Assembly: GCA_003244055.1 (NCBI GenBank)
Contig: QHBZ01000032.1
Location: forward strand, 1-59,571
Length of the DNA stretch: 59,571 nucleotides
Direction: 5' to 3'
From: Pseudonocardiales bacterium
GTDB lineage: Bacteria; Actinomycetota; Actinomycetes; Mycobacteriales; Pseudonocardiaceae
Shown piece after piece: positions 9,560-15,463 of this stretch. The notes below the pieces were generated by a model that was not told the DNA's origin, searched no databases, and worked only from the letters and a program-made list of their open reading frames with translations. The position numbers and the translations under genes are program-made. Each line of letters begins with the position of its first letter. Positions within the stretch are counted from its first letter, which is position 1.

Positions 9560-9784
9560 AGAAGCTCGCCTTTGGCACGCCCTGGCCGGGAGGCCCGGGT
9601 GCACGATGCCGGTGAACGACACGCCGGGCACGTGCCGGGACGTGGCCGTGCCGCCGCTGAGGTCCCAGCCCTGACCGGCCAGCGGCCCGGAGTCCTCCTG
9701 CGGGATGGGCCCGACGTCGAGGATGTCGACGATCAGCAGGTCGCCCCGCTGCGCACCCTCGACGGCAGCCACGCGAGATGCCAC
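9560..9784 (-). pseudogene. Acetamidase/formamidase (FmdA) fragment
   Basis: A minus-strand segment encodes 'GDLLIVDILDVGPIPQEDSGPLAGQGW' followed at once by 'ATSRHVPGVSFTGIVHPG'. In intact FmdA/AmdA these two blocks are separated by tens of residues, so an internal deletion is present. No start is recognisable and the sequence then drifts into unrelated frame. The whole 9355-9977 interval otherwise holds no intact gene; a further minus-strand scrap at about 9785-9840 ('YPVLRVNAAGILAKFLDG' then a stop) may be another remnant. Confidence 0.7.
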
Positions 9785-9977
9785 TACCCGTCCAGGAACT
9801 TGGCGAGGATTCCAGCGGCATTCACCCGCAACACCGGATAGTCGCCGTCATCTACCCACGGTCACAGGTGACCCACGGTGTCACGATCAGCCAGGGTGGC
9901 ATCACCAGGTCAGTGCCGTGCGTGGTCTCCGACCAGCTGTCAGACCTACCATATCCGACGTGGGTGAGACTGTCGGG

Positions 9978-10550
9978 GTGCCAAGCAAGGACAGTCGCCC
10001 CGGGCCGACTCGCTGGATCATCCACGGTGAGCAGGTGATCGATGACACGCGGCGGTTGCGGTTGAGCATCGCGCAGGTGGAATTGCCCGACGGGGTGCAC
10101 TTCGAGCAGTACGTGTTGCGGATGCCGAAGGCGGCGATGACGGTAGTGCTCGACGAGGCACGGGAGCGGGTGCTGATGATCTGGCGGCATCGGTTCGTGC
10201 CGGACTGCTGGACCTGGGAGCTGCCCGGAGGATACGTCGATTCCGACGAGGACCCCGCGATCACGGCTGCACGTGAGGTGCAGGAAGAGACCGGCTGGCG
10301 CCCCCGCAGCATGACGCTATTGACCCGGTTTCAACCGCTGGCCGGCAGCGCCGACTTCGAGAACCTGCTTTTCCTCGGCGAAGATGCCGAGGACACCGGG
10401 ACGCCCGCCGATATTAACGAGACTGCCCGAGTCGAGTGGATCGCCCTAGACTCGGTCCACGACCGCATCGCCCGGGGCGAGATCATCGGTGCCGGTACCC
10501 AGATCGGGCTCCTGCACATCCTCGCATTTCATGCTCCCCGGTCTCGCTGA
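9978..10550 (+). CDS. Nudix hydrolase, ADP-ribose pyrophosphatase-like
   Basis: About 190 residues from GTG 9978, the first good start before the conserved 'RWIIHGEQVIDDTRRLRLS' segment. It carries a canonical Nudix box, 'GGYVDSDED...AAREVQEETGW'. The order 'VLMIWRHRFVPDCWTWELPGG' before the box is typical of ADP-ribose or nucleotide-sugar pyrophosphatases. It converges on and overlaps the 3' end of the HTH/TPR regulator by 22 bp. It could belong to the RiPP locus or be a housekeeping gene; no evidence decides this. Confidence 0.85.
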   Translation: MPSKDSRPGPTRWIIHGEQVIDDTRRLRLSIAQVELPDGVHFEQYVLRMPKAAMTVVLDEARERVLMIWRHRFVPDCWTWELPGGYVDSDEDPAITAAREVQEETGWRPRSMTLLTRFQPLAGSADFENLLFLGEDAEDTGTPADINETARVEWIALDSVHDRIARGEIIGAGTQIGLLHILAFHAPRSR

Positions 10551-12043
10551 ACCAACAGGCCGATCTGCTCTTCGAGCATCCGTACCACCGGTTCAGCCCG
10601 GAACGGAGCGAGCCGATGTGACAGGTCGATGAGGTATGTGACCTTGCGGACTGACCGGACATCGGCGGCAAGATGCAGCGCCGCCAAGCCGGTCTCACAG
10701 GCTTCTTCGACCTTGCGCTGGTCTGCCAAACTCGAGGCCAGCAGCGCCAGGTTGAATAGCCGACCCCGGTCGTAACCGTCGATCATGTCCAGCGAGCGTC
10801 GCGCGAACCGTTCGGCTTCGGCCGGACGCCTCAGTTCACGGAAGCAGTGCCCGAACTTCGCGGCCAAGTAGGCACCGTCGAAGTAGGCAAGCCACTCCGG
10901 CCGGTCACGATCCTCCGCAACCGCGAAGGCCTGTTCAGACTCGCGAAGGGCGGCTACACAGCCGTGCGCATCGTTCGCCAGGGCAAGTCCATGTGCTTCC
11001 ATGACGGCCGATTCAGATACCAGCGCTGGCACTCCAGCTCGCTTAGCGTTGTCCTTGGCGGCTCGCGCCAGGTCTGTGGCCAGAGCGGCGGAGCGGAGGA
11101 ACGCGGCCTGTTGGCTCATTCCTGCGAGCATCTCGCCGGCTAGTGCGTCATCACCGACGTCTTGACAAAGGTGCATCGCGTTTCGGAGATGCCGACGTCC
11201 GGAATCGACGTCGCCCACGTCGTAGGCCATCCACCCTGCCAACTGATTGAGCTCGGCGACCGCGGCAGACAACTCCCGGCGCACGCTCTCGCGGTACCGG
11301 CCCTCGCGCAGCAGGGGGAGTACGTCGGAAGCCACGTAGTTGGTGACGGCTGAGCGAGCGTGCCCGCCGCCGAATCGGTTGTCCAGTCGGCGGAAGGTCT
11401 GGGTCATCTCCCGGATGGTCTGCACCTCCGTCATACCCACCGCACGCGTGCTTGACCCCGATGCAGGCTGCGTGATGAACCAGCCGAAAGCCGAGCAGCC
11501 AACGGATGCTGCGCCTGCGGCCACAGCTCGTAGCAATCGACGTCGTTGCACGTCCTCGCTTCCTGTCTCGGACTCGTCTTCGACGCTATGGGCATCACGT
11601 AGCCGTACGTATGCGTGTGCTGGTTGTTCCGATAACTGGAACCAGAGGTACCGCTCAGGGATATACAAAGCACGAGCCCACTGGTCAAGTTTGTTCAAGT
11701 CATGAGTTGCTTGTGCGGTTCGCTCCAAACGGCTGACCTGACCCTGCGTCAATCCAAGCCAGCGGCCGACCTTCGCCTGGGTCAGCACCGGCCGATGCTC
11801 ATAGCGGTAGGCGTTGAGCACCTGGCCGAAGTGCCGGGACTCCAGCGCGTCTCGGAGCGCCGCTCGCTGCCAGAAGTAGTCCTGCTTAATGGGGGCGCGA
11901 GACCCTTGAACCTCGTGACGGGAACACGGGCTGCACAGTTGGGAGCGGTTGTCCCGTGCCAGCCGTGTCCCGCACCCTTGGCAGCACCGCTCTTGGCCCT
12001 CCAACCTCGCCACTACTGATCCTCCGTGTCTGTCGGGCCGCAT
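10529..12043 (-). CDS. Zn-ribbon / HTH / TPR transcriptional regulator
   Basis: A 504-residue protein. Residues about 18-42 hold two cysteine pairs (CQGCG and CSPCS) resembling a zinc ribbon. A helix-turn-helix follows ('TQAKVGRWLGLTQGQVSRLER'), then a hydrophobic 'LLRAVAAGAASVGCSAFGWF' stretch and a long alpha-helical TPR-like C-terminal half ('ALATDLARAAKDNAKRAG', 'AERFARRSLDMIDGYDRGRLFNLALLASSLADQRKVEEACETG'). This layout is common in actinobacterial cytoplasmic regulators beside specialised-metabolite loci. It is divergent from the small-gene/RiPP operon, with about 120 bp between them, so it is the likely regulator of that operon (inference). Confidence 0.85.
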   Translation of the reverse strand: MRPDRHGGSVVARLEGQERCCQGCGTRLARDNRSQLCSPCSRHEVQGSRAPIKQDYFWQRAALRDALESRHFGQVLNAYRYEHRPVLTQAKVGRWLGLTQGQVSRLERTAQATHDLNKLDQWARALYIPERYLWFQLSEQPAHAYVRLRDAHSVEDESETGSEDVQRRRLLRAVAAGAASVGCSAFGWFITQPASGSSTRAVGMTEVQTIREMTQTFRRLDNRFGGGHARSAVTNYVASDVLPLLREGRYRESVRRELSAAVAELNQLAGWMAYDVGDVDSGRRHLRNAMHLCQDVGDDALAGEMLAGMSQQAAFLRSAALATDLARAAKDNAKRAGVPALVSESAVMEAHGLALANDAHGCVAALRESEQAFAVAEDRDRPEWLAYFDGAYLAAKFGHCFRELRRPAEAERFARRSLDMIDGYDRGRLFNLALLASSLADQRKVEEACETGLAALHLAADVRSVRKVTYLIDLSHRLAPFRAEPVVRMLEEQIGLLVQRDRGA

Positions 12044-12165: not shown

Positions 12166-12306
12166 GTGATCAACCAGAGACCCAACCGGTTGGCGGTGTG
12201 GCTTACCGCCCCAGTGGTACGAGCGACAATCCCGGGTGTGTGCCGGCTGCTGGCGGCGAGCCTGACTGAGCGGGGGTGTGGTCGGTGTCCGGGGTGCGCG
12301 TCGTGA
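12166..12306 (+). CDS. Small protein of unknown function (46 aa) upstream of RiPP genes
   Basis: GTG 12166 is preceded by GGAGG (12157-12161) and opens a 46-residue frame ('VINQRPNRLAVWLTAPVVRA...') ending in a Cys-containing tail, CGRCPGC. Its stop overlaps the next gene's GTG in a GTGA at 12303-12306, which supports translation. I recognise no family. The ATG at 12076 is an alternative start but lies in the AT-rich promoter region. Confidence 0.5.
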   Translation: MINQRPNRLAVWLTAPVVRATIPGVCRLLAASLTERGCGRCPGCAS

Positions 12307-12488
12307 GTGATCTTCAGGTCGAGATCGAGGCCGTCTGCGAAGTGCACCGAGGCTCGGGGCGTCTGGTGGTGCGGCGTGAGGGTGATCGGGTGGTGCTGGA
12401 TGCGCGTGCCGATGAGTGCTGCGTGATCGCCATGGAGGGCGCGGCGGTGACGGTGTTGTTCGACGTTCTCGGGGAGTGGCTGGGGTGA
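12303..12488 (+). CDS. Small conserved-looking protein (61 aa), unknown function
   Basis: A 61-residue frame from GTG 12303 ('SDLQVEIEAVCEVHRGSG...LDVLGEWLG' style), coupled at both ends by GTGA overlaps. The composition suggests short beta strands ('RLVVRREGDRVVLDARADECCVIAMEG') followed by a C-terminal helix. The high GC at third positions and the tight coupling argue that it is real. The function is unknown; its place in the run between regulator and RiPP precursor suggests a role in the same operon. Confidence 0.6.
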   Translation: MSDLQVEIEAVCEVHRGSGRLVVRREGDRVVLDARADECCVIAMEGAAVTVLFDVLGEWLG

Positions 12489-12694
12489 GCCGTCCCCGAA
12501 CGCCGCCGGGCGGCGCCATGATGGTCGACGCCTCTCCCGCGGCGCCGCCTCCTCTTACGCCTGGGGAAGCGCTGGCCAAGCTGTTCCTGGACAACGCGGA
12601 CCGTGGTTGCAACGCGGAAAACGATGTCTTCGTCGAAGAACTGCTGACACGACGGCGGGCCATCCAGGCACTAGCCAACCCCAGCGGCGAATGA
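12485..12694 (+). CDS. Small protein of unknown function (69 aa)
   Basis: GTG 12485 overlaps the preceding stop by 4 nt. The 69-residue product has a Pro/Ala-rich start, then an amphipathic helical part ('LTPGEALAKLFLDNADRGCNAENDVFVEELLTRRRAIQALANPSGE'). No family is recognised. The last gene in the small-gene run starts 30 nt after its stop. Confidence 0.55.
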   Translation: MSRPRTPPGGAMMVDASPAAPPPLTPGEALAKLFLDNADRGCNAENDVFVEELLTRRRAIQALANPSGE

Positions 12695-12724
12695 CGATCA
12701 CCCGGTGGGAGGAACGGGCAGGCG

Positions 12725-12940
12725 ATGACCGCAGAACCTTCACACCGGTTCGCCCTAACCGGTCACGATCCCGAGGGCCGCAACCGCACGATCATTTTGT
12801 GGCAGGAGGCCGATCTGGTGGACGGCGTCGTCGCGCGCCGGGTGGTGGTGACGTTGGACGCCACGATGAACACCGCGACGGTGCTCACGCGTGCCGAAGC
12901 CGTCGAGGTGGCCGACGCGTTGCGGGCGGCTGCCCAATGA
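12725..12940 (+). CDS. Small protein of unknown function (71 aa)
   Basis: ATG 12725 begins a 71-residue frame, 'MTAEPSHRFALTGHDPEGR', continuing with two strand-rich blocks ('TIILWQEADLVDG', 'RRVVVTLDATMNTATVL') and a final helix ('TRAEAVEVADALRAAAQ'). The nearest good Shine-Dalgarno (GGGAGG) is about 13 nt upstream. It is not recognised. It is followed by a 156-bp gap before the RiPP precursor that could hold an internal promoter, although none is clear. Confidence 0.55.
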   Translation: MTAEPSHRFALTGHDPEGRNRTIILWQEADLVDGVVARRVVVTLDATMNTATVLTRAEAVEVADALRAAAQ

Positions 12941-13096
12941 AGAGTGCGCGGCTACGGCGGTGCCCCTTGATCCCCGGTCGGCCGCCGGTTTGAGCCCGGC
13001 CCCCGTCAGTTGCTCCCGGCGGCCGGCCGGTTCCACCACCCGAACGTGAGACCGCGCGCGCACGGTATGAACAGATGAGAAAGGAAGGAACCTCAC

Positions 13097-13375
13097 ATGG
13101 ACTCGAACCCGTTGTCGTCAGCGGCCTTGCGGCTGGAGTTCCCCGCCGGGAGATCCGTTGAGTCGGCCTCACTGGCGCGACCTTTCGTGCTGCGTTTCGC
13201 TCAGCGAATCACCCCATCGCAGCGCCCCGAATGCAGGTACTCACCCGAGCTGCAGATCGCGCTGGACCTGAGTGGTCGCCCGCTGGTCGAGACGATGGAC
13301 AAGGACGTGCAGACGAAACGGCACAGTGATGGGGATGAGGGAGTCGAAGAGGAATACGACTGGGAAGAACTGTGA
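13097..13375 (+). CDS. Putative ATP-grasp-modified RiPP precursor (graspetide/imiditide type)
   Basis: A 92-residue peptide with GGAAGGAA upstream of ATG 13097. The N-terminal two thirds look like a leader, including 'YSPELQIALDLSGRPLVE' (residues 49-65) just before the core. The C-terminal core (about 66-92) holds candidate ester/amide donors T66, K69, T73, K74 and S77, then an Asp-Gly (78-79), then a dense acidic stretch (D80, E81, E84-E86, D88, E90, E91). ATP-grasp ligases of graspetides join Ser/Thr/Lys side chains to Glu/Asp. The PIMT-like enzyme downstream could turn D78 (before Gly) into an aspartimide. It overlaps the ligase gene by 4 nt. Family assignment rests mainly on this context. 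Confidence 0.8.
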   Translation: MDSNPLSSAALRLEFPAGRSVESASLARPFVLRFAQRITPSQRPECRYSPELQIALDLSGRPLVETMDKDVQTKRHSDGDEGVEEEYDWEEL

Positions 13376-14337
13376 CCGTCGTTATCTTCGCCCAGGAGTG
13401 CGACGCGTCGGTGGATGAGGTGATCGGGCAGCTCACCGATCGGGAGGTTTCGGTGTTCCGGGCGGACACGTCATGGTTTCCCCAGCGTTTGACCATCCAG
13501 GCGCGACTGGAAGGCGACCGATGGATGGGCTGTCTGTCGACCGCGCATCATCGGGTGGACCTCGGCGACATTCGCTCGATTTGGTATCGGGATCCGACCG
13601 CGTTTGACTTCCCGGCGAATCTCTCACAACCTGAGCGTCGGTTCGCGTTCCGTGAGGCACGTCTCGGGTTCGGTGGTGTGCTGGCATCGTTGGACACGTT
13701 GTGGGTGAACCACCCCAACCGGGCCAGCGATGCGATCTACAAACCGTTGCAGCTCACCACCGCGGCGCGTTGCGGCCTTGCCGTGCCGCTCACGCTGGTC
13801 ACGAACGATGCGACTGAGGTGCGGCGCTTCCACGCCGAATCCGGGTCCGGGTTGATCTGTAAGGTCTTCGGTTCCAACGCGATCACCGAACACGGAACCA
13901 CCAAGGTGGCCTACACCCACCGACTTGACGACGGCGACCTGGCTGACTTGGGAAACGTGGGAAGCACCGCTCACCAGTTCCAGGACTGGGTGCACGACAA
14001 GCACCACGAAGCCCGCGTGGTCGTGGTCGGTGACCGGCTATTCCCGGTCCTCATCCATGCCGATTCTGCGGCGGCGCGGATAGATTGGCGTACCGACTAC
14101 CGCGCGTTGCGGTATGAGCTTGCCGAACTTCCGGTTTCGGTGGAGGACGGTGTCCGGTGTTACATGGCGGCGTTCGGGTTGGTTTACGCGGCGTTCGACT
14201 TCGCTATCGACGCCACCGGACAATGGTTCTTCCTCGAAGCCAACACCGCAGGCCAGTACGGTTTCCTGGAAACGAATACCGGTGCGGCCATCAGTGATGC
14301 GCTTGCGGATCTTCTCGCCGGGGCAGCTCGTGACTGA
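13372..14337 (+). CDS. ATP-grasp ribosomal peptide maturase (graspetide ligase, MvdD-like)
   Basis: A 321-residue protein from GTG 13372, overlapping the precursor stop. It has an N-terminal pre-ATP-grasp domain with the 'SIWYRDP' motif, the central ATP-grasp Lys region ('SGLICKVFGSNAI') and the Mg-binding C-terminal signature 'WFFLEANTAGQYGFLE', as in graspetide ligases. The enzyme would phosphorylate an acidic side chain of the precursor core and form omega-ester or omega-amide rings. Its stop overlaps the methyltransferase start by 8 nt, so precursor, ligase and methyltransferase are co-translated. Confidence 0.9.
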   Translation: MTVVIFAQECDASVDEVIGQLTDREVSVFRADTSWFPQRLTIQARLEGDRWMGCLSTAHHRVDLGDIRSIWYRDPTAFDFPANLSQPERRFAFREARLGFGGVLASLDTLWVNHPNRASDAIYKPLQLTTAARCGLAVPLTLVTNDATEVRRFHAESGSGLICKVFGSNAITEHGTTKVAYTHRLDDGDLADLGNVGSTAHQFQDWVHDKHHEARVVVVGDRLFPVLIHADSAAARIDWRTDYRALRYELAELPVSVEDGVRCYMAAFGLVYAAFDFAIDATGQWFFLEANTAGQYGFLETNTGAAISDALADLLAGAARD

Positions 14338-15463
14338 CTGGACGGTTCACGCCGTGCGGATGGCCGACGACCTCACCACGGCGGGAAAACTGTGGTCGGC
14401 GCCATGGCAAGCTGCGGTACGTGCGGTGCCACGCCACGAACTCGTCCCAGTGCACTACCAACGAGTCCCCGGCACCGAACAATGGACCCGCGCCGAAACG
14501 ACCCTGGACTTGGCCTACTCGAACACGGCGCTATTCGTGTTGCCCGACGGATTGTCCTCGACCAGCATGCCATCGTTGATGACCCGCATGCTGGAGGCTC
14601 TCGATGTCCACGACAGGCACAATGTGCTCGAAATCGGCGCCGGCACCGGCTACAACGCGGCCCTACTATGCCACCGGCTCGGCGATCAGCACGTGTTCGC
14701 CATCGACCTCGAACCCACGCTGGTGCAGCTGGCGCGGCAACGTCTCGCCCGGATCGGCTACCACCCCACTCTGGTCACCGCCGACGCTGTGAACGGCCTC
14801 CCGGAACACGCGCCCTACGACCGTGTCATCGCCACCTGCTCCGTTCCCGCTGTGCCCTGGTCGTGGGTCGAACAAACCCGCGAAGGAGGCTTGATCCTCG
14901 CCGACATCAAACTAGCTGCCTTAACCGGGAATCTCGTGCTACTACACCGGACCGCCGATGGCGCGCAAGGCCGATTCGACCGCACCTACGGCGGGTTCAT
15001 GGCGATGCGCAGCAGCGGCGAAACCTACAGCTCATCCCGGCCACGCCGCATCCACCGGGACCGCAGCAGCACCCGGATCCGCACCAGCACCCTCGACGTC
15101 AGTCACCCGTGGGAACATTCAGTGCTGTGGTTCCTCGCCCACCTCCACCTACCGCCCGGTATCTCATTCGGACTGTGCGGCAAGGACACCAGCACACCAC
15201 CCACTACAGCGTTCCTGTCCGCAGCGGACGGCTCCTGGTGCGAGATCGATGAACCATCCCCCGACGGCACACGCCACGTCCGGGAAGCCGGACCCCACCA
15301 ACTGTGGCGCATCATCGAAGAAACTCACGCCACCTGGCTCAGGATGGACCAACCCGGGTGGGAACGATTCGGGCTCACCGTCACCACCAACAGGCAAGCG
15401 GTCTGGCTGGACGAACCTCGCAACGTCCTACGGCAACTCACCGAGACCCACTCATCCCGCTAA
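14330..15463 (+). CDS. PIMT-like O-methyltransferase of an ATP-grasp RiPP system
   Basis: A 377-residue protein from GTG 14330. The N-terminal part carries the protein-L-isoaspartate methyltransferase pattern ('TTLDLAYSNTALFVLPDG' substrate loop, 'HNVLEIGAGTGYNAALLCHRLG' SAM motif I, 'HVFAIDLEPTLVQLAR'). It is followed by a ~150-residue C-terminal extension not found in housekeeping PIMT. Such enzymes pair with ATP-grasp peptide maturases. In characterised cases of this type (fuscimiditide) the methyl ester of a core Asp cyclises to an aspartimide. A 156-bp gap follows before wbbL; it holds only a weak 27-residue frame (15471-15554). Confidence 0.88.
   Translation: MTDWTVHAVRMADDLTTAGKLWSAPWQAAVRAVPRHELVPVHYQRVPGTEQWTRAETTLDLAYSNTALFVLPDGLSSTSMPSLMTRMLEALDVHDRHNVLEIGAGTGYNAALLCHRLGDQHVFAIDLEPTLVQLARQRLARIGYHPTLVTADAVNGLPEHAPYDRVIATCSVPAVPWSWVEQTREGGLILADIKLAALTGNLVLLHRTADGAQGRFDRTYGGFMAMRSSGETYSSSRPRRIHRDRSSTRIRTSTLDVSHPWEHSVLWFLAHLHLPPGISFGLCGKDTSTPPTTAFLSAADGSWCEIDEPSPDGTRHVREAGPHQLWRIIEETHATWLRMDQPGWERFGLTVTTNRQAVWLDEPRNVLRQLTETHSSR

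Follow-up and report, generated by a model that had tools for sequence, protein, structure and literature searches.

What does a precursor gene make when it overlaps an ATP-grasp ligase gene, which in turn overlaps a methyltransferase gene, and do the small genes and the regulator beside these three belong to the same system? The window analysed here is a stretch of 59,571 nucleotides from a Pseudonocardiales bacterium (assembly GCA_003244055.1, contig QHBZ01000032.1), and all coordinates refer to it. The cluster is of a known type; judging from its sequence and that of its homologues, the rings of its core subgroup probably use Glu, and perhaps Lys, instead of the Thr-Asp pairs of the characterised members.

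The cassette and its class

The precursor gene (13097-13375, + strand) starts with an ATG, has AGGAAGGAA upstream of it, and encodes a TgmA-like peptide of 92 aa. It overlaps by 4 nt the gene for an ATP-grasp graspetide synthetase, TgmB (13372-14337, +; GTG start), which overlaps by 8 nt the gene for a PIMT-like O-methyltransferase with a RiPP-type C-terminal part, TgmC (14330-15463, +; GTG start). A first-pass annotation of this DNA had described both overlaps, which are present as it gave them, and had proposed a genome search for the same operon; the order precursor-ligase-methyltransferase was found in 17 of 17 related loci fetched outside the host genus. It had also remarked on the lack of an adjacent protease or transporter. 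Indeed, none adjoins the cassette in the window, and none is conserved across the related loci, only a few of which have an M14 or M16 peptidase nearby. A missing protease is normal here, because a native protease is known for no graspimiditide (PMC12291112). A promoter and terminator scan at the locus gave no signal over chance.

Group-13 graspetides, called graspimiditides, are defined by a precursor, one ATP-grasp enzyme and a PIMT homologue (PMC13001092). Over 1,300 of these clusters are on record, and the characterised products number four: fuscimiditide, amycolimiditide, albusimiditide and SsfA(BM) (PMC13001092, PMC10787088). The ligase in the window scores 387 bits against the NCBIfam model TIGR04187 (ATP-grasp ribosomal peptide maturase), above the cutoff of 350. 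Among solved structures its closest match by sequence is 9bou, which carries the annotation MvdD-like pre-ATP-grasp domain protein; next come the graspetide and microviridin ligases 5ig8, 5ig9, 7m4s (AMdnB) and 7mgv (CdnC). The methyltransferase contains the PCMT domain PF01135, and its closest solved homologues are protein isoaspartate methyltransferases (PIMTs). It matches TIGR04188 (ATP-grasp peptide maturase system methyltransferase) along almost the entire model, at residues 11-357 of 377 (E = 2e-97), with a score of 327 bits that is below the curated cutoff of 380. In the precursor, a leader recognition motif RPFV at residues 28-31 precedes a C-terminal core rich in donors and acceptors; its score against TIGR04186 (putative ATP-grasp-modified RiPP) is 20.1 bits, under the cutoff of 25. 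The leader motif reported for the class is RPFG (PMC13003496). The class also has an Asp, usually in Asp-Gly, in the loop between the two arms of the core, and here Asp78-Gly79 is present in the window precursor and in all of the homologues described below.

Family scores, gene order and homologues all support the earlier suggestion of a fuscimiditide-like RiPP made by ATP-grasp and PIMT-like enzymes, and it is very probable that the cluster is a graspimiditide cluster, predicted to make a cross-linked peptide that also carries an aspartimide. The name 'imiditide', which the first-pass annotation had included, is inapplicable, because imiditides lack an ATP-grasp enzyme and this cluster encodes one. 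Membership of the imiditides and type I pamtides is thereby ruled out; what they share with the cluster is a PIMT-type methyltransferase giving an aspartimide. Microviridins (group 1) are ruled out as well: they have MdnA with two separate ligases, MdnB and MdnC, no PIMT, and another leader and core motif, whereas the locus has a single ligase, whose scores against the MvdC and MvdD models are far under their cutoffs. Fuscimiditide (ThfA/ThfB/ThfM, Thermobifida fusca) comes from the same gene set and has an RPF-type leader motif, and amycolimiditide, albusimiditide and SsfA(BM) share gene order and class with the window cluster (PMC13001092, PMC10787088). These last three differ from the window product as predicted below in having Thr-Asp esters, with two to five rings, and for SsfA a link from a side chain to the C-terminus has been postulated.

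A conserved core subgroup

The core comprises approximately residues 64-92 of the precursor, VETMDKDVQTKRHSDGDEGVEEEYDWEEL. We searched 299 genomes of the host family (Pseudonocardiaceae) with an alignment of five precursors and found strong matches in about 20 of them; with added matching loci, these gave a set of 21 precursors from about ten genera of the family. All 21 read K-[DE]-x-x-[TS]...DG[DE]...E-x(1,2)-[WYF]-x-W-E-E, where the conservation of WEE, though not that of the Lys motif or DG or the single ligase clade, is partly by construction because the subgroup label was assigned from the C-terminal WEE of the core. The positions kept throughout are K69, [DE]70, [TS]73, DG78-79, an acidic residue at 80, one Glu, one aromatic residue, W89, E90 and E91, represented in the window by Lys69, Asp70, Thr73, Asp78-Gly79-Asp80, Glu85, Trp89, Glu90 and Glu91. 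Where the characterised Thr-Asp subtype has conserved Asp acceptors in the C-terminal arm, the 21 precursors have invariant Glu85, Glu90 and Glu91 and no conserved Asp.

The same sample held 32 other group-13-like cores. K[DE]xx[TS] precedes DG in none of these, and over the final ten residues they average 2.3 Asp and 1.1 Glu, compared with 0.5 Asp and 4.1 Glu in the 21. The first-pass annotation was right that the core 'differs in detail': it combines Lys69 with an arm of predicted Glu-acceptor type, unlike the characterised Thr-Asp cores. That annotation had named homologues losing the Thr/Ser and Asp/Glu pattern as the observation that would speak against it; the homologues instead keep Thr/Ser (plus Lys) together with the acidic residues. 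Such near constancy of the core in about ten genera suggests that it has a definite biological role, although we know of no graspimiditide for which one has been established. The core of a cultivable homologue is GKDWKTKSSTDGDEGPEENWGWEE.

In a tree of 54 ligases, a single branch separates the 21 that are paired with the K...WEE core type from the rest (support 93/94, present in 95% of bootstrap trees). They thus form one clade, so this core type has remained with its ligase lineage. When 395 genomes drawn from across the class were searched, the precursor matched at E<=1e-9 only in its own genome, from which the subgroup appears to be restricted to the host family, of which that draw contained few members. 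A phage collection gave distant ATP-grasp matches only, and among plasmids the closest tgmB match, from Streptomyces atratus, goes with a different core. No publication linking the DGDEG motif with ATP-grasp was found in a search of the literature, which covered work other than group-13 subgroup surveys. Because many of the genomes that carry it are well assembled, the subgroup may be present in published group-13 networks already without having drawn comment, and what would be new is the predicted cross-link chemistry, compared with that of characterised members, rather than the first sight of these sequences.

Predicted ring chemistry

In the reading that we favour, the leader would recruit the ATP-grasp enzyme through its RPFV motif, and the enzyme would activate the side chains of Glu85 and Glu90/91, the probable acceptors in the C-terminal arm, as acyl phosphates. 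Nucleophiles of the N-terminal arm would then capture these: Thr73, a probable donor, would form an ester and Lys69, also a probable donor, an amide; Ser77 or Lys74 could act as extra donors. The simplest nested arrangement would be a Thr73-Glu85 ester inside a Lys69-Glu90 or Lys69-Glu91 amide, so that the product would be a nested stem-loop. The methyltransferase would next methylate Asp78 of the loop Asp-Gly, the probable aspartimide site; closure would give the aspartimide, which may hydrolyse to isoAsp, and the leader would be removed by a protease encoded elsewhere. What the sequences themselves show is the gene families, their order, the constancy of the core from genus to genus and the one ligase clade that goes with it; the ring pairs, all of the chemistry, the protease and any activity of the product are inferred. 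Microviridins contain a Lys-Glu amide as well as Ser/Thr esters to acidic residues, a likeness that holds if Lys69 is a donor here. Since Lys-Glu amides occur in them, such chemistry is within reach of the ATP-grasp ligase fold; use of Glu by the ligase clade of the window would be an extrapolation from other graspetide groups.

The spacing of the core recalls fuscimiditide, where an Asp-Gly loop lies between two Thr with a spacing of four residues and the two Asp, spaced likewise, that pair with them (PMC12291112). The window core likewise has donor-side residues four apart, Lys69 and Thr73, with an Asp-Gly in the presumed loop and invariant Glu on the other arm. The residues themselves differ: the fuscimiditide stem is TMRVT...DVEKD, closed by Thr-Asp esters (PMC12291112), whereas here K-D-V-Q-T faces a Glu-rich arm ending in WEE. 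ThfB, the one group-13 ligase for which the papers cited here report a test of Glu acceptance, does not take Glu as a substitute for Asp (PMC12291112); the window clade must therefore choose its acceptors differently if rings are closed in the Glu arm at all. We give Glu/Lys ring chemistry in the window product an even chance or a little less. Also at less than even odds is the wider proposal that a family-restricted synthetase clade combines Lys-Glu amides with Thr/Ser-Glu esters in a single stem-loop, followed by an aspartimide, unlike the characterised Thr-Asp members of group 13.

The behaviour of ThfB speaks for a rival reading, in which the window encodes an ordinary graspimiditide with Thr/Ser esters only, Lys69 and the terminal Glu-Glu are recognition or cleavage elements, and the acceptors include Asp80 and Asp88. 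Thr-Asp esters form the rings in all four characterised members of the class (PMC13001092), the constancy of Lys69 could reflect a part in recognition or cleavage instead of cross-linking, and Asp88 of the window could be an acceptor. This possibility deserves weight, but on balance we find it doubtful: the position of Asp88 is Gly in 13 of the 21 homologues, whereas E85, E90 and E91 are invariant, and with one invariant hydroxyl position (K+4) few rings could be made without Lys or Ser77. Graspetide ligases are under development as macrocyclisation tools. The group-13 ligase known so far accepts only Asp; a natural, conserved clade using Glu, and perhaps Lys, would, if our preferred reading is true, widen this chemistry, and comparison of the clade with ThfB could reveal what sets acceptor choice.

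Neighbouring genes and the shared block

The nearest relative is found in the MAG nzgw100 (Pseudonocardiales; JAHEXI010000007.1), whose ligase is 92% identical. A 3.2-kb block, 12245-15456, which holds three small ORFs (S2, S3 and S4) followed by the precursor, ligase and methyltransferase genes, matches L033:4873-8085 of that genome at 94.8% DNA identity; the rpoB genes of the two genomes are 92.7% identical. Beyond the block the flanks are unrelated except for a piece of approximately 175 bp at 9763-9935 (-), the remnant of a different XRE-type regulator, 89.7% identical to part of L056:3148-3858 (-). That regulator adjoins the cassette in the relative. Because a fast-changing accessory block is closer than rpoB and has sharp edges, the comparison points to transfer or recombination of the block as a unit.

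The first-pass annotation had counted four coupled small genes. One of these, S1 (12166-12306, +; 46 aa), is probably not a gene: it overlaps S2 by 31 nt and is mostly outside the shared block, which begins within it. The other three, S2 (12276-12488, +; 70 aa), S3 (12485-12694, +; 69 aa, GTG start) and S4 (12725-12940, +; 71 aa), are all conserved in the relative; S2 overlaps S3 by 4 nt, and a Pfam search of the small proteins found no family. S2 belongs to a multicopy small-protein family whose link to graspetides is unproven; each of the 11 genomes of the host genus encodes S2-like proteins, as many as 33 in one of them, and none of 27 copies inspected had an ATP-grasp gene within 1.5 kb. 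S3 and S4 recur as a pair at three other loci without graspetide genes, some adjoining XRE regulators. We found none of S2, S3 and S4 at the 17 graspetide loci of the K...WEE type (A-type) in other genera. They look like a generic regulator-linked module sitting upstream by chance.

The alternative, that all six genes of the block are the functional unit and the small proteins are partners for biosynthesis or immunity, draws on the position of S2-S4 inside the shared block, on the presence of S2 and S3 before another cluster, on C66 of the same genome, and on the partner proteins known in other graspetide groups (PMC13097080). With S2-S4 absent from the 17 A-type loci and mostly found without graspetide genes, we consider it unlikely and reject the small genes as part of biosynthesis. 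Less probable still, to the point of being very unlikely, is that the cluster is decaying or inactive like several graspetide loci in the host genus, where many paralogues are broken, including that on C347 of the same genome; here all three frames are intact, the core is identical in the nearest relative, and pN/pS against that relative is approximately 0.35 for ligase and methyltransferase.

The regulator encoded divergently from the cassette (10529-12043, -) had been described as a dedicated Zn-ribbon/HTH/TPR protein. It is divergent, has an N-terminal Cys4 motif, and matches NF053720 (NsdA-family TPR-like regulators) with 320 bits against a cutoff of 75. A dedicated role is not supported, however, since the gene lies outside the conserved block and is absent from the nearest relative, where a different XRE regulator occupies that position. 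XRE regulators and DUF397-DUF5753 pairs have been reported beside group 11 and 13 graspetides (PMC13097080); the window protein resembles these in being an HTH regulator nearby and differs in its NsdA family and Cys4 motif. About 11 of the 17 related loci have an HTH regulator encoded divergently upstream, and of ten tested, four were over the NsdA-family cutoff while the others were of XRE/HTH types. As such regulators recur, and XRE neighbours had already been reported, control of the cluster by some HTH protein is likely.

Graspimiditide clusters in the window's genome and genus

The genome from which the window derives (G000) holds two graspimiditide clusters besides the window's own, on contigs C66 and C347. 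The cluster on C66 (loci L002 and L075) is intact, with an Asp-rich core unlike that of the window. In the one on C347 (L003 and L069) the start of the ligase is missing, a TGA occurs internally and the frame of the methyltransferase is split. Across the genus (loci L037 to L075), several MAGs are rich in graspetide ligase matches, with 20 in G005, 16 in G006 and 11 in G002 when fragments are counted, and some other MAGs have none; many of the matches are truncated or frameshifted. These uneven counts and frequent defects suggest that graspimiditide clusters are gained and lost rapidly in the genus. Two further genomes of the family have 13 and 14 matches.

Neighbours of the cassette

In two genomes, G165 and G119, the A-type cassette adjoins genes that score weakly against phage tail, holin-like or integrase families (L189:11064-14556 and L190:10463-11159). 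Because of these neighbours, some copies of the cassette may be carried by prophages or recombinase elements. A remnant of an XRE-type regulator lies at 9763-9935 in the window, where it overlaps the predicted start of a NUDIX-like ORF (9705-10550); in G008, the nearest relative, this regulator is intact and sits next to the cassette.

A multicopy small-protein family

The small ORF S2 (12276-12488) and its relatives (L087 to L115) form a multicopy family of proteins of 60-75 aa, for which a Pfam search returned no match. The family reaches up to 33 copies per genome, with a consensus near IPVTC-H-GPRGFANLVV...LDPHVTG-CVIILDEAAATALFDVLGEWLG.
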